Origin: Lumbricus rubellus
Lineage: Eukaryota; Annelida; Clitellata; Crassiclitellata; Lumbricidae
Assembly: GCA_945859605.1 (NCBI GenBank)
Contig: OX243819.1
Span: 7,418,419-7,482,418, forward strand
Direction: 5' to 3'
Length of the DNA stretch: 64,000 bases
Below, piece by piece: positions 8,351 to 41,795 of the stretch. Every line of letters starts with the position of its first letter. The stretch's first letter is position 1. Position numbers and translations under genes: made by a program. The notes beneath the pieces were generated by a model. It saw only the letters and a program-made list of their open reading frames with translations, was not told where the DNA came from and searched no databases.

Positions 8351-8506
8351 GCGTTGGTTGTTTAGCAGTTGTTGGCCAAGCTAGCCTAATAGCTTGACCA
8401 TCAACTGCTAACATCAACTACCTTCTCCCCCTACGGTCTTCGCCTCTTCTTCACGGTTCCGTAGAAAAAGAAATACGCACCGTCCGGACGGTTCCGTAGC
8501 CAGTGC

Positions 8507-13997: not shown

Positions 13998-16898
13998 AGT
14001 GGTACCAGAAGTGGGGTGAAGCTAAGGGCTGGTATAACAAGTGATACCAGAGTAAGCGGGGTTGAATTGAGTTCGGATACCGAGGGTCCTGCTAAGATAA
14101 GCTCAGGTGTAGCAAGTGACATCAGAATTAGTACAGGTGCTGATGGAAAGAGAATTTTTCTTGGAGAAATAAATGAACTAAATGATCCAAAAAATTTCTA
14201 TGGCGCCCGACCAAAAGTGATATTTAGCACCAGAGCTACAACTGATGATGCTAATGTAGACACTCAAAGGATGTATGATCATGATATGAGAACTGCATAT
14301 GAAGGTTTTGATTTTGACTATTACATGCAGAGTAAGCAAATGCAATTAAGAAATCAATTAACTAAAAAATGTCCATCGGATAGCGAGCATTCTGAAATAA
14401 AAGATATGCGGCCTTTGCATAATCTTGTACTCGATTCCCATGCGGTAGCTTTAGGACAAAATAATGTTAAAGCATGTACTAACTCACGACTGTTAGTTTC
14501 AGATAATGGGGATCCATCATCGCTGAGGGAAAATCATCTGGTGCTTCGAGGTGCACATCCCGGTCAGACGACGACAACCATCTCGTGGGCTACCACCTTT
14601 TCCCCTTCGTCGCTCAACGTCATGGCTTCCGAAAAACCTTTCCTGCCCTCTGGCGTCGCTCCACGAATATCTACGCTCACCCTTCCTTCCGGTCAGCCGC
14701 TCATGTCGACACCGAACCTGTCGTCGGAAACACACGTGACACAAAGCTGCGAATATCAACGGTGGAAGGCAAGTCAGCCTTCGTACATGCCTTACACGCC
14801 ATATCAGCATCTGGTCGCTGATCCAGCCGCTCATGATGAACAGATTTCAACGCTGAATAAATCTGTGCAAATGTCAGCGACACAAACAGTGCCGATAAAC
14901 TCTGTGGTGAAATCGAACAGTGCTACTGCTGTGAAACTGAACGGTGCAAGCGAAATCAGATCCGATGAGCATCGTAAGAATTTCAATCAAGAAGAACTGC
15001 TCCGCCTCCTGCTGCAGACACTCAGAGAACCCCCACAGAATTCATCTACGACAACCGACAATGCAGTCCAAGAAATTGCTAGTGAAAAGAAAGAACCTGC
15101 TGGGAAACTACAATCTGAATCTTCAAATTTTCCAGATAGAAGAATGAAATCGCAAATGAAGCTGGACCGCTACAATGGTAAGACGTCGGTGGAAGTATTC
15201 CTCAAGAAATTCGAGGTATGCTCGAAGAACAATAGATGGACTGAGGAAGAGAAGCTGGCCCAACTGACCTGTGCCTTGGTTGAACCTGTCGATCAACTGC
15301 TACACGAATTTGACTCTGAAGCTTTGGTGACCAGTGCTGATCTGGTCAGTAGGTTGAAACTGCGATACGGAAGCACCGATCAAGCTGCTCTGTATCAAAC
15401 CAAATTGAACACTCGTCGCCAGAAGGTGGGCGAGGACCTTGGTTCACTGGCTCAAGATATCCGGAAACTGATGATCCTCGCATTTCCGGGACCAACATCA
15501 ACGCACAGCGAGACCATCGCTATCAGAGCATTCCTGGATGCTCTACGAGATAAAGATCTGGCCCTGAAGGTACGAGAAAGAGAACCAGCCACCTTAGACA
15601 ACGCCTACAAAATCGCCATGAGACTGGAAGGCTATCGCTGGTCGGATGAAGACGCTGCCGATCGTCGTGATCGTCGTCCTGGGCGCATTTCGAATGTGAA
15701 AGAAACCGAACTTGACCTTGACGAAAAGTTGAACCGACTTCAAGAACAGATGACCCGGAAGATGGAAGAAATGCTTCAGAAGTGGTCCCCGCAACCAAAT
15801 ACTACCTCTGCTGATGGACAATTTCGACAGTGGCAACCGCGACGACCGTTTCAACCAAAGGAGAACAATGGCTTCAGAAACCAACCGGGGGATCGCCGTC
15901 CAAATAACCGTTTCCAAGGAGAAGCCCGAGACAACAGACGTTGCTACGAGTGTAATCAACCCGGGCACCTTTCTCGAGTTTGCCCTAGCAGGACAGACAA
16001 CACGTGGCAGAGAGAACAAGAACAAGAACCAGAATCGAACACGGTGAACAATGCGAGACACGTGAAGGGACGAAATGACGCTTACCTTTCCGTAACCATA
16101 AAAGGTAAACATTTGCTGGGGCTGCTGGACTCGGGTTGTGAAATGACTCTGTGTCCCGCTTCGTTGGTAGACCCTGCCGAAATCCAGCACTCTAAGCAAT
16201 CCCTGTTAGCAGCAAACGGTTCAGCCATCCGTGTACTCGGCGAAACGAAACTGAAGTTGCAGATTGAAGGCCGACCATTCGAGATACCCTGTTTGGTGAC
16301 CGAACAGGTTTCCGAACTAATTCTGGGCCTCTCGTGGATGAAGGACGAAAACGTTTTATGGCATGTGGGTCATAACTGGGTTCTGGTGGGGGAGCACAAG
16401 TTCTCAGTTCATTGCAAACCTCGCTCCAGACTGTGCAGAAGAATCGTGGTAACTCGTGACCCTCTAGCTGCATCAGATGGTGAGAAGGAGGAAAGAAACT
16501 TCGAACGAATTCATCGCCTGGAAGGAACCCATCTTCAGGAAGATGTGGAGAAACAACCGGAATCTGCGACGCCAGAAACTTCCTCAACGGAATCTTCGCT
16601 CCAAGTCTCTGCTGCCAAGGTGGTAGCCCAGCATCAACAGGATGGGGATGTGCATCCTCCACTCGTCCTCTCCGCTCATCGAGCCGGCGAGAGCGAAAGC
16701 ACCGGAGTCACCCAGAATCATCTGTCAATTAGTCTAGATTTAGGAGATATGCAAATTGCTGATGTGCGGTTGAATAAAGATGATTTTGTGGCTGTACCGA
16801 TTAAACATGTGCAAGATAATTGTGATTTTGCAAGAAGGTTTATACAGCGCTCGAGCCCCAATAGGAACCATGGGTATGGGCCCGGGTATAGGCAGTAA
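13368..16898 (+). CDS. Gag-protease polyprotein of the LTR element, ORF starting inside the LTR
   Basis: 1176 residues, no stop. The first 210 residues are encoded within the 5' LTR, and the frame then runs through the primer binding site. An acidic N-terminus (EDEVEENTEENEEGE) is followed by a long low-complexity region. A retrotransposon Gag/capsid-like domain spans about residues 600-760 (RYNGKTSVEVFLKKFE onward). A CCHC zinc knuckle is at C859-C862-H867-C872. A retropepsin-like domain has LLDSGCE with the catalytic Asp at 921 and ILGLSWM further on. The tail beyond about 1000 has no recognised domain. Gag would package element RNA, and the protease would mature helper and self proteins. 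The ATG at 13,368 follows an AT-rich leader with stops. Confidence 0.9.
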   Translation: MSEISYEDEVEENTEENEEGEAPVDNDPEGMSKTGVVELLQSFTGTLAEFMKRHDSQIEHLNNEIGQLHERPSQFIPSSKEGEVISERLREVVTPLKDWGIQKPVGADSNPDDLHANEVVALRPRAAEMYVPSTRAILGTCVRQPRPEVVEATLPYGQSGIDSALAHTVETADPAYFALSSVPLNSRRPLQQCGTSFGNTWQFPKMGVATSGTRSGVKLRAGITSDTRVSGVELSSDTEGPAKISSGVASDIRISTGADGKRIFLGEINELNDPKNFYGARPKVIFSTRATTDDANVDTQRMYDHDMRTAYEGFDFDYYMQSKQMQLRNQLTKKCPSDSEHSEIKDMRPLHNLVLDSHAVALGQNNVKACTNSRLLVSDNGDPSSLRENHLVLRGAHPGQTTTTISWATTFSPSSLNVMASEKPFLPSGVAPRISTLTLPSGQPLMSTPNLSSETHVTQSCEYQRWKASQPSYMPYTPYQHLVADPAAHDEQISTLNKSVQMSATQTVPINSVVKSNSATAVKLNGASEIRSDEHRKNFNQEELLRLLLQTLREPPQNSSTTTDNAVQEIASEKKEPAGKLQSESSNFPDRRMKSQMKLDRYNGKTSVEVFLKKFEVCSKNNRWTEEEKLAQLTCALVEPVDQLLHEFDSEALVTSADLVSRLKLRYGSTDQAALYQTKLNTRRQKVGEDLGSLAQDIRKLMILAFPGPTSTHSETIAIRAFLDALRDKDLALKVREREPATLDNAYKIAMRLEGYRWSDEDAADRRDRRPGRISNVKETELDLDEKLNRLQEQMTRKMEEMLQKWSPQPNTTSADGQFRQWQPRRPFQPKENNGFRNQPGDRRPNNRFQGEARDNRRCYECNQPGHLSRVCPSRTDNTWQREQEQEPESNTVNNARHVKGRNDAYLSVTIKGKHLLGLLDSGCEMTLCPASLVDPAEIQHSKQSLLAANGSAIRVLGETKLKLQIEGRPFEIPCLVTEQVSELILGLSWMKDENVLWHVGHNWVLVGEHKFSVHCKPRSRLCRRIVVTRDPLAASDGEKEERNFERIHRLEGTHLQEDVEKQPESATPETSSTESSLQVSAAKVVAQHQQDGDVHPPLVLSAHRAGESESTGVTQNHLSISLDLGDMQIADVRLNKDDFVAVPIKHVQDNCDFARRFIQRSSPNRNHGYGPGYRQ
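14000..14017 (+). other. primer binding site, tRNA-Leu(UAA)-like
   Basis: TGGTACCAGAAGTGGGGT lies 2 nt after the 5' LTR. It is complementary, with one mismatch, to the 3' end of animal tRNA-Leu(UAA) including CCA, as I recall that tRNA. It is also translated as part of the gag ORF. Confidence 0.75.
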
Positions 16899-18703
16899 TG
16901 TGATGTAATGTGATGGGCTGTTAGTTAAGTTGTTTGTGTTTTTATTATTTTTTTTGTGTGTCTGAATTTTTATGTAGCGCTCACATTAGTAGTTATTGTA
17001 AATGGAGTATGATTGTGGAAATGCTGATGTGAGTCGCATAATGGCGACGGGGTAGTAGCTTAGAGGTTAGAGTCCCCTCTCTTTTGGTTGATGTATGATG
17101 ATACACTGGGTTCAGTATTATTTATGTTTATTGATATGCATATGATAGTCGCGTATTAGAGATAAGATTATTGATACTTGTCGTTTTATTGCATTGCGTT
17201 TTGTTGTTGTTGCCACAGTAAGAAAGGCAACTGTTGTGTATGCAGTTTTAAGGTTGAATTTGCATATGACTGTAATTTACTATGTTGAATTATGAGTAGC
17301 TTGAGCTTAGTAGCAGTTAGTGGACACAGTCTTTGGATGTTGACTGGTAAGTTGTATGGGTTGAATGTCTGAAAGGAACTAGTATGTCTGTGTGATATGT
17401 CTACGCTCCGAGTAATTTGTGAGTAAGACAGATGGTAGACTTGTAAGTAGTCCAATGTCTCCGCAGTCAGTTTAGATTATATGAGAGGTGAGACAGATGA
17501 CCTGGTGTTTAGAGTTTTGAGCTGTAGACGGCCTAGTTTCTTTGGTATGCTTTACTAAGCAGTAAATCCTTTTGTTTACTAGTTAGCGTTACTGTTCTGC
17601 TCGGTTGTACTCCGTCTTGTAAGGTAGACGTGGAGAGGTCATAACTTAGGTCAGGGAGAAACCCGTTAGTTTCTTGGGTATGTTTTACTAAACAGTAAAT
17701 CCCTTTGTTTAACTTGTCTCGGGTGGTCTGCTCTGTTATACTCCGTCTTGGAAGGGGGACGTGGAGAGATTATTGCATAGGTCGAGGATAATGCCGTCCT
17801 AGTGCGTATTAAGAATGCTTAGCTAAACAGAAAGCCTTGTTTAGTAGTCTCAGCCTAAGTGTAATGTGTTCTGTCTGTGATGATGTGCTGACTGCCCATG
17901 TTTATGAATGCTCAGAAAGGAGTTGTTACAATCGTTGGTGGTTGTATGTAGTATCTGTAAGGGTGGTGTAAATGGAATACAGCATTAGTTAAAAGTGTTG
18001 TCAATTTCTAACCCTGAGTAATACGTGAGCAGTAGTATGGTCTGACTGGTTAGGAACAGGATTTGCAGATGCTGTGTGCGAATGAATTGTCAGAGTGATG
18101 GGATAAAGGTTTGCTTTGACATTTAAGATGTCTTGTGCTGTAGCTCTTGATACGCTTGGATATGTTGTGCTGTTTAATTGATAATATTACTGAATATGGT
18201 GCCGGGACATGACCTTTTAGTGTAGGAAGACATTTATTTATCCTTGTAAGTGGTCCCGAGCAAGTGATGGTATTGGATGAAAAATAATGATTATAGTACT
18301 ATGATTGTGGTTTAACCTGTCATGCTTTGCTATTACCCTTGATCAGTTGCTGCTGTCACCTCGTACCGCTCAAGATATAACTGATAGTAGAATCATTCGC
18401 TGCAATTGTGATAGAAGCTGTTGTGTGTTCATGCGTTTCGTTTAGAGATATGCCTTTTACGAATTTTTAGTTGTGCAATGACCTGCAACGTTTTGTGAGA
18501 TATATACTTGAGATGTGGTACATCTCTAGCCATATTGTAGTCGCAGTTGATGTGATCTAGCGAACTCTTTTAGTTGATTGTGTTGATGTTCGGTTATTGG
18601 TTCCATTATGGTATCCTCTACGGTACCGTTGTATAATGTTTCTCGGTTATGATCAGCAGGAGCTGATAAATTTTCCTCTATGGTGGAAAATTTCGGACTA
18701 AGT
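16899..18703 (+). other. non-coding 3' part of the LTR element
   Basis: About 1.8 kb without a supported ORF, where pol would be in an autonomous element. It contains a degenerate tandem duplication of about 135 bp (17,535-17,668 and 17,669-17,800). Both copies carry 'ttactaa(a/g)cagtaaatcc' and 'actccgtcttg(t/g)aag' blocks, and a weaker third copy follows near 17,815. Confidence 0.7.
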
Positions 18704-18712
18704 GGAGGGAAG
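18704..18712 (+). other. polypurine tract
   Basis: ggagggaag immediately precedes the TGTAAC start of the 3' LTR, as expected for the plus-strand DNA primer. Confidence 0.85.
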
Positions 18713-20414
18713 TGTAACGATCGTGGAAATTGCGATCGTTAATTATAAATTTGCGGCCTAAACGATTTGCGGCCTAGATTTGCGGCCTTGCTAAATTTGC
18801 GAGCGGTCCTCGGAGTTTAACCCCTTTTTGGAACTGACCGCCGGAGCAGTAATCCTTTTTAGCGGAAAATTTGCATTGCGACACTCTATTTTTAGATCGG
18901 CGGCAACGCAACCGTTCTGATTGGACTTCCTCGGTCACGGGACTCTCACGAGTCACGTGACGTCGTCTCTGGTTGGCTGGAAACAGCTAGATCGGCAGAC
19001 GGAGGAAAGGTTTCGAGGGTGCAACATCTCCGTGCTCGTGCCGACGAAAATTGTTGATAAAAATAAGAAGAATTCTGACAGAAATTTCATTGAAATAATC
19101 CGTTTAATAATTCAACGGACGAACGAGATATTGAAGACACTTCTGGTTAAGACCGTAGAGTCTGGAGGAAGTTTTACGCTAAATTGTCGACGAAATAGAG
19201 CTGAAATTCTTCCGTGGTAAATTCTCTGGTAGACGATCCCTTGTGACCGCCATTGTCGTCATTGCCGATCGCTGCGATAACAATTACTGGAGGGTAGAGA
19301 AGTATCACTGTGGTTTTTATCTGATTCCTTAACCGAGAAACTTGAATAAGTGTAATCTGTGAATAATACTTTGGCTGTGTGCAGTGTTGATAGATAATTA
19401 GCAACGAATGGATCGTCTGCAATAATTAATTAGATAATTGATTGAGTATAAATTGATCCGATGATAGTGAACAATCCTTTCAGCAGAGAAACGCGCCTGT
19501 AAAACTGATATAAGATTTAACCTTCATAAGCCTAAAGTGTTTTACTGAAATAATCAGAGTAAAGTTAGAACATGTATTAGAAACGTGTAATAATTAAGTT
19601 GTGTAGTTAAATCTTACGGAACAGACTCTGAATATTGAATATTGAACATTGTACGAGAACATTGCTTTTAATTTCAACTATTGTTAAACATTGACAAAGT
19701 TTGTCAACTGCAGTTAAGATACGTTTGCTTAATTAAATAATCTAAAACGTGCATTGAATAATATTGACTTAAGATAAACCTGCAATGTCCGAGATATCTT
19801 ATGAGGACGAGGTTGAGGAGAATACGGAAGAAAATGAGGAAGGAGAAGCCCCGGTTGATAATGACCCCGAGGGGATGAGTAAAACAGGAGTCGTTGAACT
19901 CCTACAGTCCTTCACAGGCACACTCGCAGAATTTATGAAGCGCCATGATTCTCAAATAGAGCACCTAAATAACGAGATAGGTCAATTGCATGAACGCCCG
20001 AGTCAGTTTATACCTTCCTCGAAGGAAGGTGAGGTAATTTCGGAACGGCTAAGGGAAGTGGTAACACCACTAAAGGATTGGGGGATTCAAAAACCTGTTG
20101 GAGCGGATTCGAACCCTGACGACCTTCATGCAAATGAAGTCGTTGCTCTCAGACCGAGAGCCGCTGAGATGTATGTCCCTTCCACTCGAGCTATCCTTGG
20201 TACCTGTGTAAGACAACCCAGGCCTGAAGTGGTGGAAGCTACCCTCCCTTACGGCCAATCAGGAATCGACTCTGCCCTGGCGCATACCGTAGAAACTGCT
20301 GACCCTGCTTATTTTGCATTATCTTCGGTTCCCCTCAATTCAAGGAGGCCGCTCCAACAGTGTGGCACCTCGTTTGGAAACACCTGGCAGTTTCCAAAAA
20401 TGGGGGTCGCGACA
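18713..20414 (+). repeat. 3' long terminal repeat, 1702 bp
   Basis: Near-identical to 12,303-13,997, with a 7-bp tandem duplication near 19,634 and one substitution. It repeats the start of the gag ORF. From the ATG at 19,785 the frame is open for 210 codons of LTR plus 18 codons of flanking DNA (to 20,471). That product is an accidental truncated Gag rather than a second gene. Confidence 0.93.
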
Positions 20415-22305: not shown

Positions 22306-22307
22306 TA

Positions 22308-23710
22308 CAGGGTGGCTCAAAAAAAAATGTACCACCGGATAAAATGCAATATCTTTGCAACCGACTGAAATTTTTCTCCGAAAATTTTCCAAATTGAAGG
22401 GGAATGAATTTCCAACAATCACTGAAAGTTTCACTGAAAACTTTTTATGTTTGCAAAAGTTACAGCTGTTTAAACTTTGATTTTCGTTTTTTCAAATTTT
22501 CGTGGAAAAAATTAACGTCAATTCTTGATTTCCATGTCAAATGATATCACTTTTCACTACGGCCTCAGAAATACGTTTTGCAGTTTATTGTAGGGTATGA
22601 TGAGAGTGTCCACTCCCTGCTTTAATACGAGCTCGAATTCTTTTTGGGAAGCTTAGTATGGCCTTGTTAAACGGGGGCTGCGGCAACTGATCCCACATTA
22701 TCAGCAAGACTTCCTTCAGCTAGCCAATGTTCTCCAACTTGGGATGAGATGTCTTGCAGCATAGCTTCCCAGACGTGGTAAGCAAGAGGGCTAAGGTCTG
22801 GCGATGTTGTTAGTCACCTTTGTCAATAAATTTAGTGGAGTGGATTGCCAAAATAAGGTAGCGTCATCATAATCAGCCTTGCCATGCGAGCAAGCAGGCG
22901 CACAGTCCTGCTGGAAAATAAAACCGCATGTTAGAGCATGGCCTACCTGGTCTTCAATTAGTCTGGGTAAGAGAGTTCAGCGATGAGTTTGACATTTATC
23001 CTACTGAATGGGATTAAATGCAGTCTTTTCTGGTACCCATGACACATGCCAGCAAATCTGATGCTGAACCACGATGAGCTTTGCAAACTTGACCCTTTCA
23101 ATTACCAAGCAAATTTCTTGAAAATTGTTCTTTTTCCATCAGACCAAGCGACCACTTCCTGCCTCGCTTCCAACATCTGATCTTCGTTACATAAACATGT
23201 TTACAGATAGCCTTCAATATGCTCAGGCTCCACTTTTCACTGGGTATTTTGCTATGATTACGCGATGTCCCAGTCTCTGTTCACGCAGCGTCCGAATTTC
23301 CATTTTATCTTCCGCAGAAACTTTGCCCATGACGTTCACTAATGGATTCACGAATTGAGTCCATAATCTATAAAATATCCCTAAATACCAACAGTTTGCT
23401 GCATAAACAGCTTCTTTACAGCTCTTAGTGAGGTCGTAGGACATCATCATCATTTCTTATGATGTAATTTGCAAAAAATCTTAATAAAATCACATTGTAT
23501 TGGAAATTTATTCTCCGGATTTTTGAAAAAACGAAATTTTAAGTTTGAACAGCTGTAACTTTTGCAAACAAGAAAATTTTCAAGTGAAACTTTCAGGGAT
23601 TGTTGGAAATTCATTCCCCTACAAATTGGAAAATTTTCGGAGAAAAATGTCAATCGGTTGCGAAGTTATCGCATTTTATCCGGTGGTACATTTTTTTTTG
23701 AGCCACCCTG
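22308..23710. mobile_element. Tc1/mariner-like element, long TIRs, TA target
   Basis: The ends CAGGGTGGCTCAAAAA and its complement are bordered by TA (22,306-22,307 and 23,711-23,712). The inverted repeats extend imperfectly for roughly 190 bp at each end, including 'tgcaaaagttacagctg' blocks. The interior holds a decayed transposase on the minus strand. Confidence 0.88.
22600..23200 (-). pseudogene. decayed mariner-type transposase
   Basis: On the minus strand, translation near 22,880-22,916 gives FQQDCAPACSHGK, matching the FQQDGAPAH block of mariner/Tc1 transposases. Near 22,600-22,725 it gives LKEVLLIMWDQLP and SFPKRIRARIKAG, the usual C-terminal end of that subgroup. Frameshifts and stops occur throughout. 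The DDE catalytic residues cannot all be found, so it is inactive. Confidence 0.75.
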
Positions 23711-23712
23711 TA

Positions 23713-24176: not shown

Positions 24177-25136
24177 CTATCGTGTGCCGAGAATCACAAG
24201 GTCGTATCGTGTAGATTTTGAAAAAATGCTTTTTTTAGTTTCTATTGATTAAGCAAGGAAAGGGCCACAATCTAGTGCAACAAAGACGTATGTATATGCA
24301 GTAATGATCGAGATCCATCTTGAGCAACATGGTTGTATTGACGTTTATATTGTTTGGGTGAGAATCATAAGGTCGTATGTGAGAAGCTGCGGATCACAAG
24401 GTTGTAACTAACTGGAAGCTATCACTTTTCATAATAACGGTAAACAAAGAAAATGGCTGACAGATCGTTGTGCAAAACATTTTCCCTGAAACAAGCTCTA
24501 GAACAGTGTTTAGAATCTGATTCCGATGAATTGGATGATTCAAGAGATGAAGATTATTGTCCATCGAGTGCACTGTCATCGGAAGAATCCGATGATATGG
24601 ATCAGATCTTACGTATGTATTATATAAATTTTCATAATTAGTGATTCGGTTAGTGTGCGTCCTGGCGTAGGGGACACCGAAATTTGAAGCTCGACGCTGA
24701 AAAATAAAGGTGCTGCGTCCACGGACGCACCCAAGTTCTGAATGGACGCCAAAATAAATTAACGATGCGTCCAAGGGACGACAAAAAAAACCGACCCCCG
24801 GCGTCCGTTGCGTATAACCAACACCTTCATTGTGGTCGACAGAAGACAAGGCTGTAGTTTCCTTTTATGTTATTTTATGAGTGGATTACAATTAATTAAG
24901 TTATTATTAAGTTAATGTAATGATAATAATTAATTAAATTGCAATCTTATTTCCTGCATGACAGCATGGCATATCATTTTTCCAAACTCTATTGAATAAG
25001 ATTCATGAGAACTTTTCATTTTTTTTAAACCGGTACAGGATACTTAGATCAACATTACTAATACTAAGTCTTTAACAATACTACAATAATGACTGTTATG
25101 TGAAATAAATTATTCTTGTATATTACATGGTTTCAG

Positions 25137-25513
25137 TTAAAGAGCCCTCGACTGGTACTTCGGCTGATGTCACGACCCATTCAGAGCCCTCGACTGGTAC
25201 TTCGGCTGATGTCACGACCCCTTCAGAGCCCTCGACTGGTACTTCGGCTGATGTCACGACCCCTTCAGAGCCCTCGACTGGTACTTCGGCTGATGTCACG
25301 ACCCCTTCAGAGCCCTCGACTGGTACTTCGGCTGATGTCACGACCCCTTCAGAGCCCTCGACTGGTACTTCGGCTGATGTCACGACCCCTTCAGAGCCCT
25401 CGACTGGTACTTCGGCTGATGTCACGACCCCTTCAGAGCCCTCGACTGGTACTTCGGCTGATGTCACGACCCCTTCAGAGCCCTCGACTGGTACTTCGGC
25501 TGATGTCACGATA
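25137..25513 (+). repeat. 42-bp tandem repeat, nine copies, inside E1 exon 2
   Basis: A unit starting agagccctcgactggtactt is repeated about nine times, nearly identical except for the first and last copies. Because 42 is a multiple of three, long open frames appear on both strands. Only the EPSTGTSADVTT frame joins the flanking exon. Confidence 0.95.
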
Positions 25514-26287
25514 ATGCCTGTTCCTTCAGAGAAAAATTCCGTATCTCTGTCAAGGAAAAGAAAGCGAGATCCATCCGATTGGGAGAAATGTAAGAAAACA
25601 GTCCTGTCAGTCTGGGAAAGCATACATAAGTGCACGTGGCAAGTCTGTGCCAGGTAGGGCTATGAAAGACGTTGATTGTGCTAAATGTAAACACATGTGT
25701 TCAGACAAAATCGCTTTATCTATACGAAAAACAATATTTGAGAACTATTGGCAAATTGCTGACAAAACCAGGCAGATGGACTTTATTCGATTTCACGTTG
25801 TGGTTATACCAAAACAAACACACAAACGTAAACTAAGCCATCACAAGAACACATTCCTGTATTACTTCACGAATGGTGATCAGCGGATACAGGTGTGTAA
25901 GAAAATGTTTCTCAAGACACTAGATATCGGTGAGAAAACTGTTAAAATAGCCAAGGAAAACGAAAAAGAAACTGGTTTTGCTGTTAGTGATCAGAGAGGA
26001 AGACATCAACCTGGATCAAAGAAGACGGAAGATGTCAGAGAGAAGATTCGGGAACATATTCGTAGCTTCCCTGCTTTAGAATCACACTATGGTCGTGCTA
26101 GCTCACAGAAAAAATATCTCGATTCAAACCTTTCTGTAAAGAAAATGCACGAACTGTACACTGAGAAATGTTTGTTGGAAAACGTTAAACCAGAAAATCT
26201 TAAATTTTATCGAGATATTTTTAATACACATTTCAATATATCTTTCCACAAGCCAAAAAAGGATGCCTGTAACTTTTGTTCTGCCTT

Positions 26288-26297
26288 TCAAAATATG

Positions 26298-26330
<33 letters not shown>
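26288..26330. repeat. (TA)n microsatellite in transposase exon
   Basis: It replaces the expected coding sequence after CNFCSAFQN and puts the two halves of the E1 transposase out of frame. Confidence 0.85.
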
Positions 26331-26336
<6 letters not shown>

Positions 26337-26889
26337 CAGACAGAGAAGTGGAACACCTTGCTCATCATGCAAGAAAAGAAAGAGTCAGGGAACAGAAGGA
26401 AGCACACAAAAATGAGGCAAAGACAAGTGACACAGTGCATGCTGTGACATTTGATCTTCAGCAAGTTCTCCAATCGCCTAAATTAAATGTGAGCTCACTG
26501 TTCTATAAGCAGAAGCTGTCGACTTACAATCTGACTGTCTACAGCTTGAGCGATAAGAAGTGCGTAAATTATATGTGGCACGAAGCAAAGGCTGGGAGGG
26601 GAAGTTGTGAGATAGCAACATGTATTTTCAAATACTTGGGTAGTCTGTCTCAACAAATCACTAAGGTTGTCATGTACTCTGACACATGTGGTGGACAAAA
26701 CCGTAACATTAACTTTGCAACCATGTGTTTTCGTGCCATACGCGAGTTGCCTATAGTTACCATTGAACATATATTCATGGAATCAGGTCACTCTCAGATG
26801 GAATGTGACTCTGCAAATAGCGCCATTGAGTCTGCTTACAAAAATGTCGACATTTGTGTCCCGACATATGAAAAGGTACCATAAGTCGG

Positions 26890-27745
26890 CGTACGGTTTC
26901 ACGAGAAATCGCGCATAATGACGTCGGGGGAATGTATTATCAAATTTGAGCTCTTGGTATTTTTAGCAGCAGGCAAGCCTAAGGTATGATGTCATCGCTA
27001 AATATAGCACATTCACCACTTCTTTTCTGGTTTAACTGGTCACTAAAACACCCACCATTGGTCAGATAAAACGTACCATAACTCGGCTGTGCTTGCGCTG
27101 TGTAACCGGCTGCTTGATTGGCTGCACTATGTGTAACCGGCTGTCTGATTGACTGCACGTGATCGAAAATAATGAGCCCTGTCATTTTAAATCCGTTTTG
27201 AGTAAACATTTTCATTAATAATTATTGTATTATCTTTTTCTACCAAACATATCAGAAGGAGGTAATTAAAACATTATTCTTTTCTTGAACCTATACAAAG
27301 AATTAAAAACAACTTTGCTATGCGTCAGTATTACTCATTAAGTGCTACGGTTGTCAGTTGTTATGACAGTGGTTCCGTGCGGAAAGTCGTGCCTTCAATG
27401 TTTACTGGTATGGTTTCTCACCTGAAGGGTTATAGAATTTTAACTGCCCAAGCTAGGTGAAGAACTTTGAGGCCTTTTACAGATTTTTTCCATGCACAGC
27501 AGTCCATAAATTATCACAACGGCAGTTTGTAATTCTATCGGAAAATGTTGGGATTAGATTTTCCCATATCACAACGGCAGTTTGCAATTCTATCGGAAAA
27601 TTTAGGGTTTCGATTTTTCCAAGCCACAAAGGCACTTTGTAGTTCTATTGGTAAATTTTGGTTTAGATTTTTGTAACAGCAGTTGTAGCTGTAGTTGCAA
27701 ATTCTTTTACTGTTGAATTCTTTTTAATATTGTCAGAGTTGTACG
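26890..27745 (+). other. E2 5' non-coding region
   Basis: No ORF is supported. Near 27,500-27,690 three imperfect copies of 'cacaacggcagtttg…ctatcggaaaa' form a tandem repeat of about 65-70 bp upstream of the transposase start. Confidence 0.6.
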
Positions 27746-28203
27746 ATGACATCGCGGGAGGCATTAATTGCACGGAAGTTATCAGGACTACCATTCGTTA
27801 TGTCACCTGATGTCCATGAGGAAATAAGACAGTCTATCGCAGATTACTTCCTTGACGACACCCACGATAGCGATAGCGAACTGTCAACATCTGATGCTGA
27901 GAGTCATGATGCAAACGAAACCACAGCTGAGTCATCCCATTTCCTAGCTACAACAGTTACAACTTCACTAATGCCAAATACCGCTTCATCACCACCTGCA
28001 TCCGTCTCTGTCGCTCGACAAGCATCTACTCCAACACCGGTCTTTGTTATCAATCCAGCAACAATCCCTGAGGCTGAGAGGAATATTCTTGGTGTTGGTG
28101 TGCACAGCCTTGGAGATGAGGGTCAAAGTGGAGTGGAAGAGAAAGAGAAAGAAGTGAAACTCGTTGAAGAGATGCAGGTGAAGAAGTGTTGCAGCAACAA
28201 CTG

Positions 28204-28350
28204 TCTTGCAAAGATACCAATCGACACCATCATCTCCTGCCGTGAACAGTGCCGTGAACTGCAAGTTCGATGTGATCAACATGTCTTGCAAAGATACCAA
28301 TCGACACCATCATCTCCTGCCGTGAACTGCAAGTTCGATGTGATCAACAT
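28204..28350 (+). repeat. 80-bp tandem duplication breaking the E2 ORF
   Basis: The segment beginning tcttgcaaagataccaat at 28,204 is repeated from 28,284, the second copy lacking 12 bp. The duplication shifts the frame and creates the premature stop at 28,369. Confidence 0.9.
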
Positions 28351-29688
28351 GTTGATCACCTACATTTAGTTCTGCTTGGTCACTTTGATGCTTGCTTACA
28401 GGACAGTAAAAAGACATCGAGCAGCAAGAAAAAGCCTACAGACCGAAGTCGCACCAGGCTGATGCACACCTTCCACGGCATGCCTGTCTGTATTGATTCA
28501 TTCCACTTCTTGCACGACATAAGTCGTCGTGTAACAAGGAATTTGAAGCTGCAGTTTGAACAGTACGGCCTAGAACCAAGCGCTCACGGTAACGTGCTGA
28601 AGACGTCGTTGTCTAAAACACTCCCGTTTGAGATGCGTTGTGACGTAGTGAAGTTTATTGTGAACTATGCGCTGAACAATGCTCTCGTTCTTCCAGGACG
28701 AACAGCTGGAACCAAAAACCCAGATATTTTACTACTACCCTGTGGGACAACCAAGAGCAAAGTTCATACTCTGTACGTTCAGGCATGTGGAGACAATAGA
28801 TCCATGTCATTTGCTGCTTTCACTGACACTTGGAGGATGTTTCTACCAGGGATTTGTATTCAGAAACCCTGGACTGATCTGTGCTCTACCTGCAAACAGC
28901 AAACTGTAAGTCTGCAGAAGCTGCGTTCACTGGACGAAGATGTTCGCAAAGATCTATTAAGTCAATCACTGAAGCATCTTGAAGTCGAGTCCGAACAGCG
29001 GCAGTATTACAAAGATTGCATTTCGAATGCAAACATTGCACTTCCACCACAATTTCAATTTGGCCAGGTGTCAGATTCTGCTGTAGTGCAACACTTCAGC
29101 TTCGACTTTGCACAACAGGTCTTCATACCAAACTCTAGCCAGCAGGTAGGGCCAATCTACTTCCTTGTACCATACAAGTTGGCTCTTTTCGGAATTATGT
29201 GTGAACCTATGAGCCGTATGGTGATTTACATTATTCCGGAAGCTGTCTTAGTAAGCAAAGGCTCAAACCTCGTCATAAGTTTGCTGCACCACTTTCTGTC
29301 GAAGTATGCTGCCGGTGTTACTCAGATGGTGTTCAACGCAGACAACTGTGTAGGGCAGAACAAGAATAATAGTCCTTCAGTACCTGATGTGGAGGGTTGT
29401 TACAGGGCTCAGTTCAAGGATTGAACTGGCGTTCATGATATCCGGACACACTAAGTTCGGTCCAGACTACGGGTTTGGCATATTTAAGCGTCTTTATAGA
29501 CACGCAGAAGTTAACTCAGTGGATGAAGTGTGTAATCTGATGAGCGGTTCAAAGCTGTTGATTGCTGAACCAGTTGGCACGAAACAGGGTGAAGTGCGTA
29601 TACCATGCTATGACTGGCAATCAAAGTTTGCATCACTGGGTAAAATCTCTGGTATTAAACAGAATCATCATTTTTCATTTGACAGAGT

Positions 29689-29835
29689 CAGAGCTTAAAG
29701 TGTGCCTGGACGGTCATGGACGGCGTCCAGGCACTTATTTTAGAATCTGCACACCGTCCTGGCACTTATTTGGCCCGCACAGTAGAGAGAGGTAAGGAGC
29801 GTCCAGGCACTTCTTTTTCTACACTTTAACCACTG
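29689..29835. mobile_element. hAT MITE 1 (147 bp) in E2
   Basis: The ends CAGAGCTTAAAGTGT and its partner ACACTTTAACCACTG are flanked by a perfect 8-bp duplication, gacagagt (29,681-29,688 and 29,836-29,843). It truncates the type B transposase frame. It is related to MITE 2 at 35,143. Confidence 0.93.
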
Positions 29836-29910
29836 GACAGAGTGAAGCCGAATGTATGCTCTGTTAGGACATAATATGGCTGGAAGCACAAAGGTGCTAA
29901 GCGCACTTTT

Positions 29911-30275
29911 TTGGGTTTTTCAAAAAAGTAGTGCATAATATGCCTGGAAGAAATATACATCGGAGCACAAAGGTACTAACGTTTACGATGTTAATTTGGA
30001 TCACTTGGCACCAAAACACAATTGGGCTAAGTCTCATTGGCTGAAATCCATAGAGCGCAAATAGCTCAAGCGCACTTAATACCTATGTGCACCCTCTTTT
30101 TTTAACGCCTTGTCTTTGTTGTTGACTTCCACGCCATTCGCCATTACTGTTTATCGTCGTCCCCGTTACAAAAATAATAAAAGTTACATTAAAAATAACA
30201 GAAACAATATCTCGAAATCTTTAGTGTTTACTGCTTATTGTTTACTGTTTCTGCTCTCAATACATTATTATTGAA
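29911..30275 (+). promoter_or_regulatory. E3 5' non-coding region with subterminal repeats
   Basis: Between the left TIR and the ATG lie one direct and one inverted copy of the GCACAAAGGT-type motif. The position suggests transposase binding and the promoter. No TATA box is assigned. Confidence 0.45.
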
Positions 30276-33200
30276 ATGCATAAACGAGTGCATCGTTTCA
30301 GTTCTGCAAAAGCGCTTCAGATGATCATGGACCTTAATGATTCAATCGAGGAATCCAGTGATGATGGTAAGCTTATTAATAGGAACCTTAGAAAATGCTG
30401 TAAAATTATGGAAAATAAATGTTGATGTTTGGGAAATTAAGTGATTTAAAGCTCGAAATCGGCTTATGTGGTAAAATTGTAAAAATTATGCGGTATTATG
30501 CAGTAAGGTTTGGGCTGCATCGAAAGGCGATGTCATGGACGTCTCATCGGTATTATTAAGCAACTACAGGTAGGATCGTGACCACCAGAACACACCTGCA
30601 GACGCATAGACCGGTATTGCTTGCCATAGTGAATATTAAAACCAGCGATGCATCCCTCCGTGTTTCTTTACATTGTTTAACTTGGGTATGCATTTTGTCT
30701 GTCTTAGGAACATCTACTGAACATCTGGCAACTGATTTGCCTGCAACTATGCTTCCTCTGGACCTCGAGATTTCTTCTCCGCTTAATCGTACACCTGCTA
30801 TGACAGTTGAAGGGCTTGATCCTACACTTCCTCTAGTCTTGGAGCCTTTTTGCAGAGAGGTTTCTGCAGTAGAAGTGCTCGACCATTCACACCCGCTGGC
30901 AACTGATTTGCCTGCAACTATGCTTCCTCTGGACCTCGAGGTTTCTTCTCCGCTTAATCGTACACCTGCTATGACAGTTGAAGGGCTTGATCCTACACTT
31001 CCTCTAGTCTTGGAGCCTTTTTGCAGAGAGGTTTCTGCAGTAGAAGTGCTCGACCATTCACACCCGCTGGCAACTGATTTGCCTGCAACTATGCTTCCTC
31101 TGGACCTCGAGGTTTCTTCTCCGCTTAATCGTACACCTGCTATGACAGTTGAAGGGCTTGATCCTACACTTCCTCTAGTCTTGGAGCCTTTTTGCAGAGA
31201 GGTTTCTGCAGTAGAAGTGCTAGACCATTCACACCTGCTGACGTCCGAGCCTTTCAACCTTCATGTTGCAAGTATGGCCACTCCGATGGAAAGAACTCGT
31301 ACCCGTAAAGTTATCATCATTACTCGCCTAAGGTAGTTCTTTGTACTATCATTTCAAATGTGGTTTCAATTATTATTTTAAAATGTAGGTCTAATAGTCA
31401 TTGTCTCTATGGAGTAGTCATTTTCTTGTATTTCTGCCATTATAATTGATGAATTAATTTACTTAAACTACTCTTATGATGAAAATACAAAAGTTAAATT
31501 AAACTTCTGTTAAACTTGTCATCAGTTACTACAGTGTACTATGATTATGAATGTTTCATTGTAATCGCAATGCATTCTGTGAATGTGAACTTCAATAAAG
31601 GAAGATTATTAAATTATTAAAAATGAGTGTTTAATTGGCATTTATTTTTATTTTACATGTCATGTAGGCCACCAATCTTGCAACCTTTGCAAGTTCCAGT
31701 CGGGGTTATTTCTTCTCAACAGATGTCACCTGATTCAGTGCTTCCAACAACAGTTGATGTAGTTAATCCTCCACATCCAACAGAAGTTACAGTGTCTACT
31801 CGTTCAACTTCTCTCTCTAACGAAGAGCCTGGTCCCTCAGGAAGTCTTCCTCTCAGCGACGATGCATCTACACCTTGCCTACCACCATCAGATATGGAGG
31901 AGCGTTCACGAAAGCGTAAACGAAATACACAAGGTTGGAAACGAAATGTTAGGCAGCTATCTCGAGCTAATGGAAAGGAGTATGTTTCGAGGAAAGGGAA
32001 ACTAGTGGCGGGAAAAAAACCATGTGGGGGTTGCGAAGAAGGATGTCGTTTTAAGTGTGGGGTCATGATTTCGGAAGATAAGCAAGTGCAATTATGCAAC
32101 GAGTATTACTCGTTGCAAGACATTCAGTGCAAGTCTCAGTTCCTCTGCAGCGCAGTCACTGAAGTTGCTGTCCGCAGGCGTAGCATAGATGCTGCAACTG
32201 GAGAGGCTGTAAGCACAAAGCGCAAGAAAAGTCGAGAGTATTATTTGATGTCCGATGATGATCGAATGCGTGTCTGTAGAAACTTCTTTTGCAGTACTCT
32301 TGCTATTTCAATCAAGATTGTTAACAGGGCTTTAAAAGGTAAATCAGATACTGGTTTATTTGTTGGAAAAGATGGTCGGAAAGGAAAGGTTCCTGCAAAT
32401 AAAACTTCAGATGAGAATATCCAGAAGATCGTCGATCACATAAACAGCTTTCCGCAGGTTGAATCGCATTACACTCGCAAAGACTCGCGTAAACGGTATT
32501 TGGCACCTGATCTTAATATTCAACAGCTTTACCGTTTGTACAGTGAGGATTACTGTCAAAGGCTTGGAGTAGCACCTGTTAAGCAAGAAATCTATCGAAG
32601 AGTCTTCAATACCCAATTTAATCTTGGCTTCTTTATTCCTAAGAAAGATCAGTGCTCCACTTGTAATAGCTACAGAAATGCTGTGGATACAGAGAAGACG
32701 AACTTGCATGATGCATGGAAAGCACATAAAAGGCGAGAAAAAGAGTCTATGGAGGAGAAGAGTCGCGATAAAGTAAAAGCTTGCAGTGACCAATCGTATC
32801 GAGCCATAACATTTGATCTTGAAGCAGTTCTCTCTACTCCACATGCAGGTGATTCACAAATATATTATAGAAGGAAGCTTGCTGTGTACAACTTTACGAT
32901 ACTGGAATCGGCATCCCAACAAGGATTCAATTACATATGGGACGAGACAGAAGGTGGTAGGGGAGCAAATGATATAGGGTCCGCCCTTCTGGATTACTTG
33001 CGAAAACTTCCAGCAACCGTCACGCACGTCACATCATTCTCAGATACTTGCGGTGGACAAAATCGCAACCAGTTTATCTGTGCAGTCATGTTGTACGCCA
33101 TTAGAACATTGCCTTCTCTACAAACTGTTGATCTAAAGTATATGGAGAGTGGCCACTCGTATTTAGATGTAGATCTAATGCACTCCCTGATTGAGCGAGC

Positions 33201-33699
33201 TACAAAGCATCTCAAAATTTATACAACTCGTGATTGGGAAGTGGCGATAGCCGGTGCACGAAAGAAAGCTCCTCCATTTATCGTTCAGCGAATGATGCAC
33301 ACAGACTTCAGTGACTTGAAGATGCTGGCTTCTACTCTTCTACTAAATCGCAGCAAGAATATGGAGGGGGATACGGTGAATTGGCTACGTGTTAAGTGGC
33401 TGCGCTTCAGTAAACTTCACCCATTTGTCATTGAGTACAAATACCAGATTAGTGATGAGAATTTCCTTCGCCTCAACATATCCAGCAAACGCGGCAGGCC
33501 AAACACACTGATAGGGGACCTTACACCAGCCTATCTCTCTCGAATCCCAATCTCGACGGCCAAAAAAGCTGACCTCCTTGCGCTACTGAAGAGCAGAGTA
33601 ATTCCGGCAGAGCATGCGGTTTTCTACAATGACTTGCCTTCAAATGCTAGAGCTCGAGACTGTCTTTCGGAGCCCTGTGCTGACGAGGAAGAAGACTGA
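30276..33699 (+). CDS. E3 transposase (DUF7869-like, type A), three exons, intact
   Basis: Proposed join 30,276-30,366, 30,708-31,332 and 31,668-33,699: 2748 nt, 915 residues, no internal stop. The introns are gtaag…cttag and gtagtt…tgtag, and phases agree. Exon 1 is an acidic start like that of E1. Exon 2 holds three 57-residue repeats. Exon 3 has a basic KRKRN patch, a cysteine cluster (CGGCEEGCRFKC), and the presumed RNase H-like core with FD at D622, FSDTCGGQNRN at D698 and GHS with H735 and D741. The basic C-terminus ends in an acidic tail. The role, inferred from TIRs and homology, is cut-and-paste transposition of E3. The DUF7869 likeness is from memory; superfamily membership (possibly Sola) is unproven. 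Confidence 0.85.
30724..31239 (+). repeat. 171-bp tandem repeat, three copies, in E3 exon 2
   Basis: A unit coding for 57 residues (beginning LATDLPATMLPLDLE) occurs three times in frame and nearly identical. It occupies the same linker position as the 42-bp repeat in E1 but is unrelated in sequence. Confidence 0.93.
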
Positions 33700-34391
33700 A
33701 TTCAAACTTAATGTTATTTTTTTCTTATCTGAAACTAATGGCTTGAATGCAGAGCATTATTTTATAATTACTGTTGCATTTTATTGTTTTACTTCTTCAA
33801 CGTGTGAAATGTGGATAAATTATGGAGGAAGATGCATTTTGGTGCTTCTTGATTTTCATTATAATATTTTTTTCTTAAATCTTTATTGGATGTTAATTAT
33901 AATGATAAGTATGACAGCTATGATTATCACATTAATTTGAAGGAAAACTCGGCGTAAGAGTCGCTCATACTTGAATTAAATTATTTTTGGTTATTTTCCT
34001 GATATTATTAGGAGTTTTTTTGCTTAAAAGAAATTTTAAAATTAAATAATATAATCATGTGGTGCTTAATAAATTAACAAATGCTTAAAGGCTAGTTAGA
34101 ACAGTATTTATTAAGGGTCTTCTAAAACAATTGTCAAAACAGTTGACATGAATTAGTATTTCAGGTGTCCCAGCATCAGCGCACAAAAGTCCTAAGTGCA
34201 TATATTTCCTTACAGTAATTTTACAAAGTCATTTTTTTTTTACAAACAGAATTATTTGTGCAAAAATAAAAATACTTGTAACACTGCAATAAGCTCTTCT
34301 TTTGGAAAAGTCATTGCAAATCGAATTATTTTGAATAATGAATTTTAGCAACACATAACAAAACTTCAACTTCAGTTTTCTTAGAATTAAG
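33700..34391 (+). other. E3 3' non-coding region
   Basis: AT-rich and without a gene. A GCACAAAAGTCCTAA copy at 34,181-34,195 is the right subterminal repeat. Confidence 0.6.
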
Positions 34392-35142
34392 AAAAGTGCG
34401 CTTAGCACCTTTGTGCTTCCAGCCATCGATATGCTCAGTCTGCAGTTGCAGAAACTACGGTAGATTGGGACAACGAATCGATGTCTTCTGAAATGCCAGA
34501 GATTCTCATCCCAGCCGGTTTGTCCCATGCCAGGAAGGAGTACCTCTATGCAAAAATACAAAAGTATGTATCAAATGACATGAAGGACAGACTGTGCCCA
34601 AAGCCAGCTGATGCAGTGGAAGATATGAAACTTCAGCTGTGCAGAAAACTGTGCAGCCAACTGTTGTGCCTGTTAAAGAAGTCAGCAGTAGGAAAGCCAA
34701 GCAAGTTGCAGGCAAAAGTCTGCTTACTCGTTCTGTAGCTGCAACATCTGGTACTGAACAAATTCCAACCACCATGGGGCTATCCATGCCTCATAGGAAG
34801 CGTGCTGCTCCAACCTGTGGTTACTGTGGTGTTCAGGGACATAGAGATTCCTTTAGGTTAGGCAAACCTCTGTGTCCAAAACGCAAAGCAGAGTGTGGAC
34901 AAAAATAACTTTTTGCTAGAGCTATTAATGCATGGTGTGTATAATATTATGATTGTTTTAGTGAGTATGGTATTGAAAACTGAACTGAACTCATCAAAGG
35001 ACTGTTGTTTAAACCGAATTTGACATTTTGACTTGCAAACACTTTTGTATCGCAAAGGTTGGCAGTCCACAGATTTAATGAAAATCAGTCTTATGGATTT
35101 GGGTTCAATTGTGACACATAGACCAGCTATATTGGCTGAACC

Positions 35143-35320
35143 CAGGGCTTAAAGTGTGGCAGGACGATCATGGACGGCGTCCTGGCACTTATTTTCAAAT
35201 CCCTATGCCGTCCTGCCACTTATTTGGCCTGCACACCTGAAAATGCAAGGGGCGTCCTGGCACTTCTTTTGAAAAGGTAACAGGCGTCCAGGCACTTATT
35301 ATTTTACACTTTTAGCACTG
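35143..35320. mobile_element. hAT MITE 2 (178 bp) in E2
   Basis: The ends CAGGGCTTAAAGTGT and ACACTTTTAGCACTG are flanked by a perfect 8-bp duplication, gctgaacc (35,135-35,142 and 35,321-35,328). The body repeats 'ggacgatcatggacggcgtc' and 'ggcacttattt' blocks shared with MITE 1. Confidence 0.93.
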
Positions 35321-36372
35321 GCTGAACCTGAGTTATATTTGATTGCCACCATTACGAGGTACTCATAAATTGTGCCCATTGAATAACAGTTAAGGATTTC
35401 TGTGCGAATTGTCTAGACAAAATGTGTCGTGTTTTAAAAACAAATTTCCCGAAAATGTCCAGTTCTCGTGTTAAGCCATGTTTTATCTTATAAGTCGGTC
35501 ATTTATCATCCAATTTTTATCTGGTTTTCAGCAAAATGTTCAGCTCACTTAGCTGGTTTGTGAAGGCATAATAACTCCAAACCCGACTTATGGTACCTTT
35601 TCATATGTCGGGACACATTTACAGTCCCACCGACTACTACAGAATCGTCACTTTGGCACGTCGTCATGATCCTTACTCAGTAGTTCAGCTGATGTTATTA
35701 ACTACAGAAGTATGGCTACTGCCTATGTCAGAAATCGTTCCAAAGACCTGAACGGTGCAAAGGTCAACTGGATGCACATTAAGTGGTTGAGATATGACAA
35801 GTTGCAACCTAATGTGATTCAGTTTCGCAATGGATATGACGGAGAGTTTCGTAAGATGGTGGTTAACACTGGAGCGCGTGGGAGACGCCCAGTGTTGTTT
35901 CCTGAGGCTACTCCGATATTTGTCAATCCACCCGCCATTACTCTGGCCAAGTTCCTGGACTTAATCAGTTCATGCGATTCTCTAGCAATACCAAGAGACT
36001 ATCATGCCTTCTACCACAATCTTCCACACAGTGGTGCCATGAGGGATGCGCTGACTGAGCCAGATGCTAACGAAGACAGTGAGACTGAATGAAGTACAAA
36101 TGATACACCCTTGTGATCCTCGCATACTAATGACCTTTTCATTTTTGAGTGAGGATCACAAAGTCTTTTGGGCTTTTAAATGGGTCATTTTATAAAATAT
36201 TATCAGATCATACATATTACATAATTAAGTACATTACTTTGATGGTAGATGTATAAAACAAGTGCATTCAGAGTGACTGTGTGAATTGATATATGCGATT
36301 CAATATAAAAATCCGTTTTGCCAAGAATGACTTCTCTTACGATACGACCTTATGATTCTCACCCCACGCTAT

Positions 36373-39422: not shown

Positions 39423-39930
39423 TTTCTAACAACAACGACACAGCTGTCACAGACGAGTGCCAAACAACATCTGAAAGCCTATAAAAAAGCACTGCAGATG
39501 CTACATCCCAGTCGGTAACTGCTTCAACAGGTGATGCCACTTTTTAATTGTGCACGTTGTCGCACTTTAAACAATCGTATAAAGAAACTGCAGAAACAGT
39601 TATCAATGAAGGCTCGTCTCGTTGCTGTTCTACGTGTTAGGCATAAAGTGGCATTGAGAAAAGGAAAATTTCAAAAGAAAAATGCACTTTTGGTTAAGAA
39701 ATTTTTGAACATCGATCAGCAGAAGGCAGTGGGCAAGAGTACACAGAGGGGTTCTAAATGGAGTTCAGCAAAGGTGAAAATGCACTGCAACTGCATTTTG
39801 TATGTGGTCCAACTGGTTACCATCTGCCATTGTCTCAGCTGCCATCACTGCACACGCAGCATCCAATTTGTGAAATTTGAGAGTGGAATTTGAACAGAAG
39901 TTTTCCAATATCTTGCCATAAAAGTTCGAA
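39423..39930 (+). pseudogene. P-superfamily (THAP9-like) transposase, N-terminal part
   Basis: After an acceptor (gtttcag) at 39,422, the frame gives a coiled-coil-like LNNRIKKLQKQL stretch. KWSSAKVK follows and, after a one-base shift, ALQLHFVCGPTGYHLPLSQLP, a hallmark of P/THAP9 transposases. KFESGI and EVFQYLAIKV come next, separated by a stop. The gene resumes at 42,215 on the far side of a piggyBac element. Confidence 0.75.
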
Positions 39931-41795
39931 GCGCGAGCATTCAGACTAACCTTTACGCTGTTCAAATTCGTCCTGAGAAACCCCTCAAGCTGACAGTTCC
40001 AGAGTTAGAAAAGTTTCTGGGCATAACCATGTGGATGTCTCTGATCGTACTACCCAGTGCAAGAAGATACTGGAATGCCAAATACAAAGTAAACAACGTA
40101 TCAGAAGTCATGACAGTCAACAGATGGGAAGAAATCAAGCGTTTTATCCACTTCAACGATAATACGGCTGCAGAACCAGATGGCGATCGACTGCATAAGA
40201 TCAGACCACTAATCACACAGATTCGCGATTGTCTCAATACAATTCCTAAGGAGGAGTCATTGTGTGTAGACGAACAAGTTGTGCCTTTCAAAGGTCGCAG
40301 CAGACTGAAGCAGTACAATAAAAGCAAACCTCACAAGTGGGGTTAAAAGATCTGGGTACTCTCTGGTAAATCAGGTTTTGCATATGACATGGAAGTGTAT
40401 ACGGGTAAAGAAAATCATGTCCTTGCTAAAGAAAAGGATTGTGGACCAAGTGCCAACGTCGTAGTGCGCCTGGCCAGGACCATTCCACCTGTTGGACACA
40501 AGTTGTACTTTGACAATTATTTTACTAGCATTGATCTGCTTGTGTATTTGGAACACCAATCTATACAAAGTATTGGGACAGTGAGAGTAAACAGGCTGCA
40601 GGGTTTTTCTGCGAAATCTGAAAAAGATTTGAAGAAGATTGGCCGCGGATCCATGGCGGAGTACACGACTGATGTAGATGGGGTCACCATTACATTTGTA
40701 CAGTGGTATGACAACAAAGTCGTCAACCTTCTTTCAACATATGTGGGCACAGAGCCCAGAATAAAAGTGATGCGATGGTTTTCGGCACAGAAAGCAAGAA
40801 AGGAAATTGACTGCCCTCAGATAATCTCCATCTATAACCAGCACATGGGTGGTGTTGATTTGCTTGACAGCCTCATGGGACTTTATCGAATTACCATTCG
40901 ATCAAAGAAATGGTATCACAGACTGTTCTTCCATTATCTGGACATGGCTGTAGTGAACGCATGGCTACTGTACAGGCAAGCTCGTTCGCAACAAAACAAC
41001 ACATCGGAAGTTCTCAGATTGGCAGAATTCAAGGCTCAGATTGCAGAAGGCAAGATAGTCAAGTGTGATAGTCTCACTCAACAATTTGTCTTTTACTTGC
41101 CGTCACACAATTATTTCTCTCATCATATTTTTATTTATTGAATTTTGTCTTTTTCAGTTCTGATTTTCTTCTTTCTAAATCATCAACTTGTGTGTCAGCA
41201 ACTTTCGAGTCATTGCCACACGCCGATCGCAACTTATGTGAATGAGACAGTGCGACTAGCTTGGACAGATCCACAATTTATTTTGAGATGGTACCATTGG
41301 CTTGCACTGCTCTGCAGTTTATTTGCTGTATGCATCTATATTTAGATTGCAATTGGCCTGACTGTGTTGAGTGAATGCAATCTTTTATTTTTGTTTCATG
41401 TGTATTACTGATATATGAAGAATTTTTTATGAAGGTAAAACTTTGATAAAAATACTGCACATTAGATTTTGCATGCATAGTAATGTGTTTCGATCTCTGG
41501 TTTTGCTGTAGGTTTGTGTAAATCTAATAAAGGCACAAATAGGAAGAGAGCGGGTCGACCGAGCATGGAGGGTCAACTTCAATCGGTCACGAAGAAGGCA
41601 AGACGTAGGCATCCTATGCCAATTGCTGATGTTCGCACAGACGACACCAGCCACTGGCCAACTTGGACCGTCGAAAGACTGTGCTGCCGTCTACCTGGTT
41701 GTAGTGGACAATCACGTGTTTCCTGCGAAAAGTGCAACATAAGTCTATGCTTCTCAAAGGACAAAAACTGTTTCAAGCGGTTTCACACGGAGTAA
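39931..41795 (+). pseudogene. piggyBac transposase (PGBD-like), nonsense mutated
   Basis: DDE_Tnp_1_7-type domain. It starts at SIQTNLYAVQ without the usual acidic N-terminus. The catalytic aspartates are visible in CVDEQVVPFKG, LYFDNYFTS and HMGGVDLLD. A stop (TAA) replaces the expected residue in HKWG*KIW near 40,344. Exon 1 ends at 41,049 and exon 2 (41,512-41,795) follows in frame. The donor is gcaag rather than gtaag, giving a likely GC-AG intron. Exon 2 encodes the family's C-terminal cysteine-rich zinc domain (CCRLPGCSG, CEKCNISLC). One nonsense change and the missing N-terminus make it inactive. Confidence 0.9.

Follow-up and report, generated by a model that had tools for sequence, protein, structure and literature searches.

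Three nested elements and the order of their insertion

The 64-kb stretch of DNA analyzed here (the window; G+C content of 40.8%, free of N) contains three DNA transposons, E1, E2, and E3, lying one inside the other (Table 1). The outermost element, E1, has terminal inverted repeats (TIRs) that match at 26 of 31 bases in a scan allowing mismatches, and the target site duplication (TSD) CTAT stands on both of its sides. E2, with TIRs identical at 34 of 34 bases and ATTT on both sides, interrupts a predicted exon of E1, and E3, which has a perfect 35-bp inverted repeat (29876-29910 and 34392-34426), in turn interrupts the E2 gene. An exact inverted-repeat scan of the region from 20 to 40 kb returned, among its pairs, 35 bp at 26855/35583 (E2), 35 bp at 29876/34392 (E3), and 23 bp at 24356/36342, the last pairing the E1 right end with an internally placed copy of its left end. 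Since 12 first-order Markov sequences as long as the window had longest exact inverted repeats of 13 to 17 bp (arms 50 to 13000 bp apart), the 34- and 35-bp TIRs are not a product of chance.

Table 1. Coordinates of the nested elements, their predicted genes and end motifs, and the related element E4 (TIR-core copies are given as matching bases)
Feature	Position	Strand	Remarks
E1, outermost	24181-36368	+	12188 bp as it stands; net of E2, 3423 bp
E1 TSD CTAT	24177-24180 (left), 36369-36372 (right)
E1 5' core copies	24360-24380, 24389-24409	+	18/21, 16/21; best of 200 shuffles, 15
E1 exon 1	24453-24612	+	Predicted; intron phase 1
E1 exon 2, 5' part	25137-26854	+	Predicted; D..D..SGH..D conserved; interrupted by E2
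E1 exon 2, 3' part	35621-36092	+	Beyond the E2 insertion
E1 3' core copies	36101-36121 (-), 36151-36171 (+)		17/21, 16/21; best of 200 shuffles, 15
E2, middle	26856-35616	+	8761 bp; net of E3, h1, and h2, 3862 bp
E2 TSD ATTT	26852-26855 (left), 35617-35620 (right)
E2 5' core copy	27065-27086	+	17/22; best of 200 shuffles, 15
Predicted E2 transposase gene, 5' part	27728-29688	+	Frame-broken; DUF7869 matches below cut-off
h1, hAT-like MITE in E2 gene	29689-29835		147 bp; TSD GACAGAGT; ends CAGAG/CAGTG
E3, innermost	29874-34428 (probable borders)	+	4555 bp; ATA on either flank
E3 5' core copy	29961-29982	+	16/22; best of 200 shuffles, 15
E3 second 5' core copy	30073-30094	-	16/22
Predicted E3 transposase gene	30276-33699	+	Predicted exons 30276-30366, 30708-31332, 31668-33699
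E3 3' core copy	34177-34198	+	15/22; equalled by 2/200 shuffles
E2 gene, 3' part	34429-34907	+	Resumes after E3
h2, hAT-like MITE in E2	35143-35320		178 bp; TSD GCTGAACC; ends CAGGG/CAGTG
Element enclosing E4	60769-63818		Perfect 29-bp TIRs GGTACTTGTCGG..; 8-bp TSD CTTTTTCC
E4, E2-type relative outside the nest	61359-63570	+	TSD ATGT

The borders of E3 probably lie 2 bp further out on each side than its perfect repeat. Over these extended borders the TIRs are identical at 35 of 37 bases, the outermost two being AT at the left end and CG at the right end. Three starts were tried (29874, 29875, and 29876), and only 29874 places an AAGGT motif of E3 in register with that of E1 and E2. The flanking repeat is then the 3-bp ATA, and the target repeat would be either a 3-bp TSD or a 4-bp TSD, ATAT or CATA, less one junction base: each of the 4-bp forms requires the loss of 1 bp at a junction, and ATA requires none.

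When the E1 flanks are joined with a single copy of ATTT, the reading is uninterrupted, and its alignment to the E3 protein extends across the junction (identity at 72 of 192 columns, E = 5e-44). Similarly, when E3 is excised with one ATA kept, and the small element h1 is excised with a single TSD left behind, the E2 frame is open across both junctions; removal of 4 bp instead of 3 at E3 breaks it. Since the outer reading returns at each level when the inner element is removed along with one copy of the repeat, the insertion order is secure: at this place, E1 is older than E2, and E2 is older than E3. A sequence-only reading of the window had proposed the three-level nest, the CTAT, ATTT, and perfect 34- and 35-bp repeats at its borders, the position of E2 within an E1 exon and of E3 within the E2 gene, and an unambiguous order. 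The repeat pairs and the rejoined outer readings bear all of this out, with the E3 borders corrected outward by 2 bp and its ATA flanks added. Decay forms a gradient consistent with the same order, both in the TIR identities given above and in the frame breaks, which number three in E1 (besides the E2 insertion), two or perhaps three in E2, and none in the predicted E3 gene.

These junctions also bear on two other accounts of the locus. Repeats are a classic source of misjoins, and three separate elements might have been put together by the assembly; this is vanishingly improbable, as all junctions fall at TIR ends with matching repeats, the outer reading joins across each insert, and the window is free of N. 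Alternatively, E2 with E3, or the entire nest, could have been relocated later as a composite. The E1 and E2 TIRs are still present and might allow mobilization in trans by an intact relative, and rice Mutator-like element (MULE) copies carrying an internal miniature inverted-repeat transposable element (MITE) are thought to have multiplied (PMC3903597). However, nothing in the window requires such a step, each level has its own repeat, and the nesting order would be the same either way; we regard a relocated composite as improbable. Three successive insertions remain our preferred reading.

Predicted genes and their relationships

The gene models of E1, E2, and E3 were derived from sequence alone. 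The predicted E3 product is 915 amino acids long, encoded by three exons with GT-AG introns and without internal stops, and on these models an open transposase gene is kept by E3 alone, the E1 and E2 genes being broken. The E1 frame is broken near 25584, at an (AT)n array near 26294-26360, and near 35688; that of E2 is broken at two places, one a tandem duplication near 28198-28352 and the other near 29354-29424. A third E2 break is perhaps present in the 3' tail, though it could instead be an intron. E1 and E3 have in common a predicted phase-1 intron after an acidic N terminus, with a tandem array behind it. In E1 the array lies in the N-terminal coding part (25141-25511, 42 bp repeated 8.8 times), its copies 99% matching although E1 is otherwise decayed; in E3 it lies in exon 2 (30725-31240, 171 bp repeated 3.0 times, copies likewise 99% matching). 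By eye, the 3' part of the E2 gene shows a zinc-knuckle-like CxxC..H..C tail in another frame.

E2 has also received two MITEs, h1 (within its gene) and h2, which are 82% alike over 129 columns. Like hAT MITEs, they have an 8-bp TSD, CAG-type TIRs, and a short noncoding body, and from the CAG-type ends we take them to be hAT-like; no hAT transposase partner was identified for either.

The E1 and E3 protein pieces share 34 to 39% identity, and E2 is a more distant relative of both, with 24 to 28% identity to E3 (E of 1e-5 to 2e-5) and an E value of about 6e-5 against E1. Three acidic residues are aligned in E1, E2, and E3: the D of TFDL/SFDF, the D of SDTCGGQNRN/ADNCVGQNKN, and the D after SGH. 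In E3, 75 residues separate the first from the second and 42 the second from the third. The proposal that each layer encodes a transposase of the same broad superfamily holds on the identities and on the aligned D..D..SGH..D pattern, whose acidic residues may be the catalytic DDD of an RNase H-like fold. The E3 protein matches the Pfam model PF25273 (DUF7869) over a segment that spans the second and third of these residues. Pfam annotates this model only as a domain of unknown function, and no paper using the term DUF7869 was found in the literature searched. An NCBIfam search gave nothing better than E = 0.061. No relative of the E3 protein was found in scans of a viral contig collection and a genome contig collection, and none of the E2 protein in a scan of the viral contig collection.

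With regard to the features by which TIR cut-and-paste elements are recognized, E1 and E2 have TIRs, 4-bp TSDs, and broken genes, and E3 has TIRs, an open gene, and a 3-bp repeat. The E1, E2, and E3 genes presumably encode transposases.

Ends, target sites, and likeness to known transposons

AAGGT occupies positions 18 to 22 of the TIRs of E1, E2, and E3. Five consecutive columns with the same base in the three TIRs arose in a fraction of 5e-5 of 20000 shuffles, the E3 TIR being taken at the best of the three starts. Copies of the TIR core also lie inward of the TIRs in five of the six subterminal regions (Table 1); the cores for this search were chosen after copies had been seen by eye, and 200 shuffles were made per region. 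We regard transposase binding as the most likely role of the core and of its inward copies. Beyond the core, gapped alignment of the TIRs (ten comparisons, including E1 left versus right, with uncorrected p values) gave a strong likeness between E2 and a fourth element, E4 (0 of 2000 shuffles as similar), and p = 0.003 for E1 and E2, the other seven between-element pairs ranging from 0.097 to 0.69. The E1 and E3 TIR patterns were absent from the viral contigs. The E2/E4 core pattern occurred in three of them, each time alone and lacking an inverted partner, and a tblastn search with seven pieces from E1-E3 gave one match at E = 0.11; we take these occurrences as chance.

E4 lies outside the nest and carries TIRs of E2 type, its left and right ends agreeing at 30 of 35 bases. 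Its N-terminal part resembles that of E2 (E = 8.6e-10, 32.5% identity), and no catalytic region was seen in its six frames; E4 is probably a deletion derivative of the E2 type. It is the only sign within the window that ends of this kind recur as a unit with 4-bp TSDs. By eye, the zinc-knuckle-like tail of E2 is also present in E4. Inside E4, at 61650-62290, lies an apparent 3' remnant ending in (ATT)n, which we take to be that of a long interspersed nuclear element (LINE); a Pfam search at E 0.01 gave no match for the frames at 61650-62123 and 62204-62938.

The nest records two insertions in a row into related elements, and E1, E2, and E3 have a TIR core in common and in register. This raises the question of whether transposases of this superfamily favor their relatives as targets, either by binding to copies of the TIR core or by homing to the vicinity of their own sites. 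The evidence in the window argues against such self-targeting, which we judge highly improbable. Both insertion points are in coding sequence and away from the identified copies of the TIR core; the element that houses E4 has different TIRs and an 8-bp TSD; and elements of other kinds are nested here as well (h1, h2, and those at 7519-8513). Moreover, the window was chosen for its nest, so that no rate can be derived from it. The sequence-only reading thus went too far in stating that a single family had targeted its relatives again and again: E2 is a distant cousin with a TIR of E4 type, and a preference for relatives has no support.

We consider it very probable that the nest arose by the successive insertion of three autonomous DNA transposons of the cut-and-paste type, all from one broad DUF7869-related superfamily. 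E1 would have entered first, at a CTAT site, followed by E2 at ATTT in the E1 transposase exon and finally by E3 at an ATA(T) site in the E2 transposase gene, the second and third arrivals each disrupting the transposase gene of the element that received them. Whereas the DNA itself shows the insertion order, the element borders, and the damage to the genes, catalysis, binding, and activity are inferred: insertion would have proceeded by ordinary cut-and-paste, through DDD/E transposases with an RNase H-like site.

Several observations weigh against this interpretation. At the E3 ends, the outermost two bases differ (AT versus CG), and a clean 4-bp TSD is absent, its place being taken by ATA. 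At the other ends, E4 has AAGGG rather than AAGGT at positions 18 to 22, and the E2 3' region is without a significant core copy (13/22, equalled by 73 of 200 shuffles). For E1 and E3, no further copy was observed in the window. The DUF7869 scores are weak: E3 reaches 27.6 bits, above the gathering cut-off of 26, but the E2 pieces reach 25.3 bits (just under) and 19.2 bits (well under), and the E1 pieces have no match to the Pfam model despite their 34 to 39% identity to E3. The E that precedes SGH in E1 and E3 is replaced by I in E2. Two structure predictions were both of low confidence (mean pLDDT of 37.6 and 46.7); a Foldseek fold search, made with the second model only, gave a best E value of 0.018 to a protein that is not a transposase and none at or below 0.001, and a sequence search of solved structures gave nothing better than E = 0.23. 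With low-confidence models and no usable fold or structure match, the RNase H fold is not established.

On anatomy alone, the closest named group may be Sola, and Sola2 in particular. Sola transposases are reportedly of the DDD type, and a conserved D..D..D, which may be such a site, is present in E1, E2, and E3. Three of the four elements have a 4-bp TSD, as expected of Sola (CTAT in E1, ATTT in E2, and ATGT in E4), in contrast to the 3-bp ATA of E3. The TSDs of Sola2 are rich in A and T: one amoebozoan has AWWT, and another has ATAT, AAAT, and ATTT (PMC3627910). ATTT of E2 fits AWWT, CTAT of E1 and ATGT of E4 are each one base off, and E3 fits, as ATAT, only given the 1-bp junction loss. The amoebozoan Sola2 TIRs of 12 to 21 bp in the same paper are shorter than those found here (31 to 37 bp), and the net lengths of E1 to E3, 3.4 to 4.6 kb, compare with a mean of 5445 bp for curated bivalve Sola1 elements (PMC10294476). 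We also raise, as a rather doubtful idea, that DUF7869 proteins are transposases of a TIR superfamily with a bipartite end, formed by a core of AAGGT or AAGGG at positions 18 to 22 and by its inward copies. If this were true and no Sola transposase matched, the superfamily would be an as-yet unnamed one, with E1/E3 and E2/E4 as two families.

Nested transposons as such are ordinary, and nesting in transposase genes is already documented, for example in MULEs. PMC3903597 counts nested insertions in 191 of the 530 coding MULEs of maize and in 195 of the 476 of rice, with 24% (maize) and 12% (rice) of the insertion-bearing ones having insertions in coding regions. The nest described here is alike in its insertions into coding regions and differs in that three transposase-encoding DNA transposons of one broad superfamily are nested one within another. 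It dates three insertions relative to each other without the need for a clock, and it is an example of newer transposons silencing older ones through insertion into their genes. More useful, in our view, is the link it draws between DUF7869 and transposons whose ends and target repeats are defined, which hints at a job for this domain; one of these transposons, E3, retains an open gene that lends itself to testing.

Other elements in the window

A long terminal repeat (LTR) retrotransposon occupies 12303-20414, with 1.7-kb direct repeats that are 99.5% identical, ends TGT..ACA, and apparent ATTA flanks; one of its frames has a zinc knuckle match above the cut-off and protease matches below it. 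Another nest, at 7519-8513, consists of an inverted-repeat element flanked by ATAATAATA, within which a 286-bp element (7786-8071) is flanked by TAAAACGT. The 1407-bp element at 22306-23712 has 191-bp TIRs, identical at 174 positions and beginning TACAGGGTGGC, and is possibly a Tc1/mariner-like element with a TA TSD. At 39894-41141, a DDE_Tnp_1_7 transposase, which we take to be piggyBac-like, extends across two adjoining frames. Two further matches are to Glycosyltransferase family 11 (GT11) at 4881-5933 (minus strand, E = 4e-39) and to the WH_Egal domain. Judged from the introns and from the GT11, WH_Egal, and DDE_Tnp_1_7 matches, the host is a eukaryote, probably an animal.

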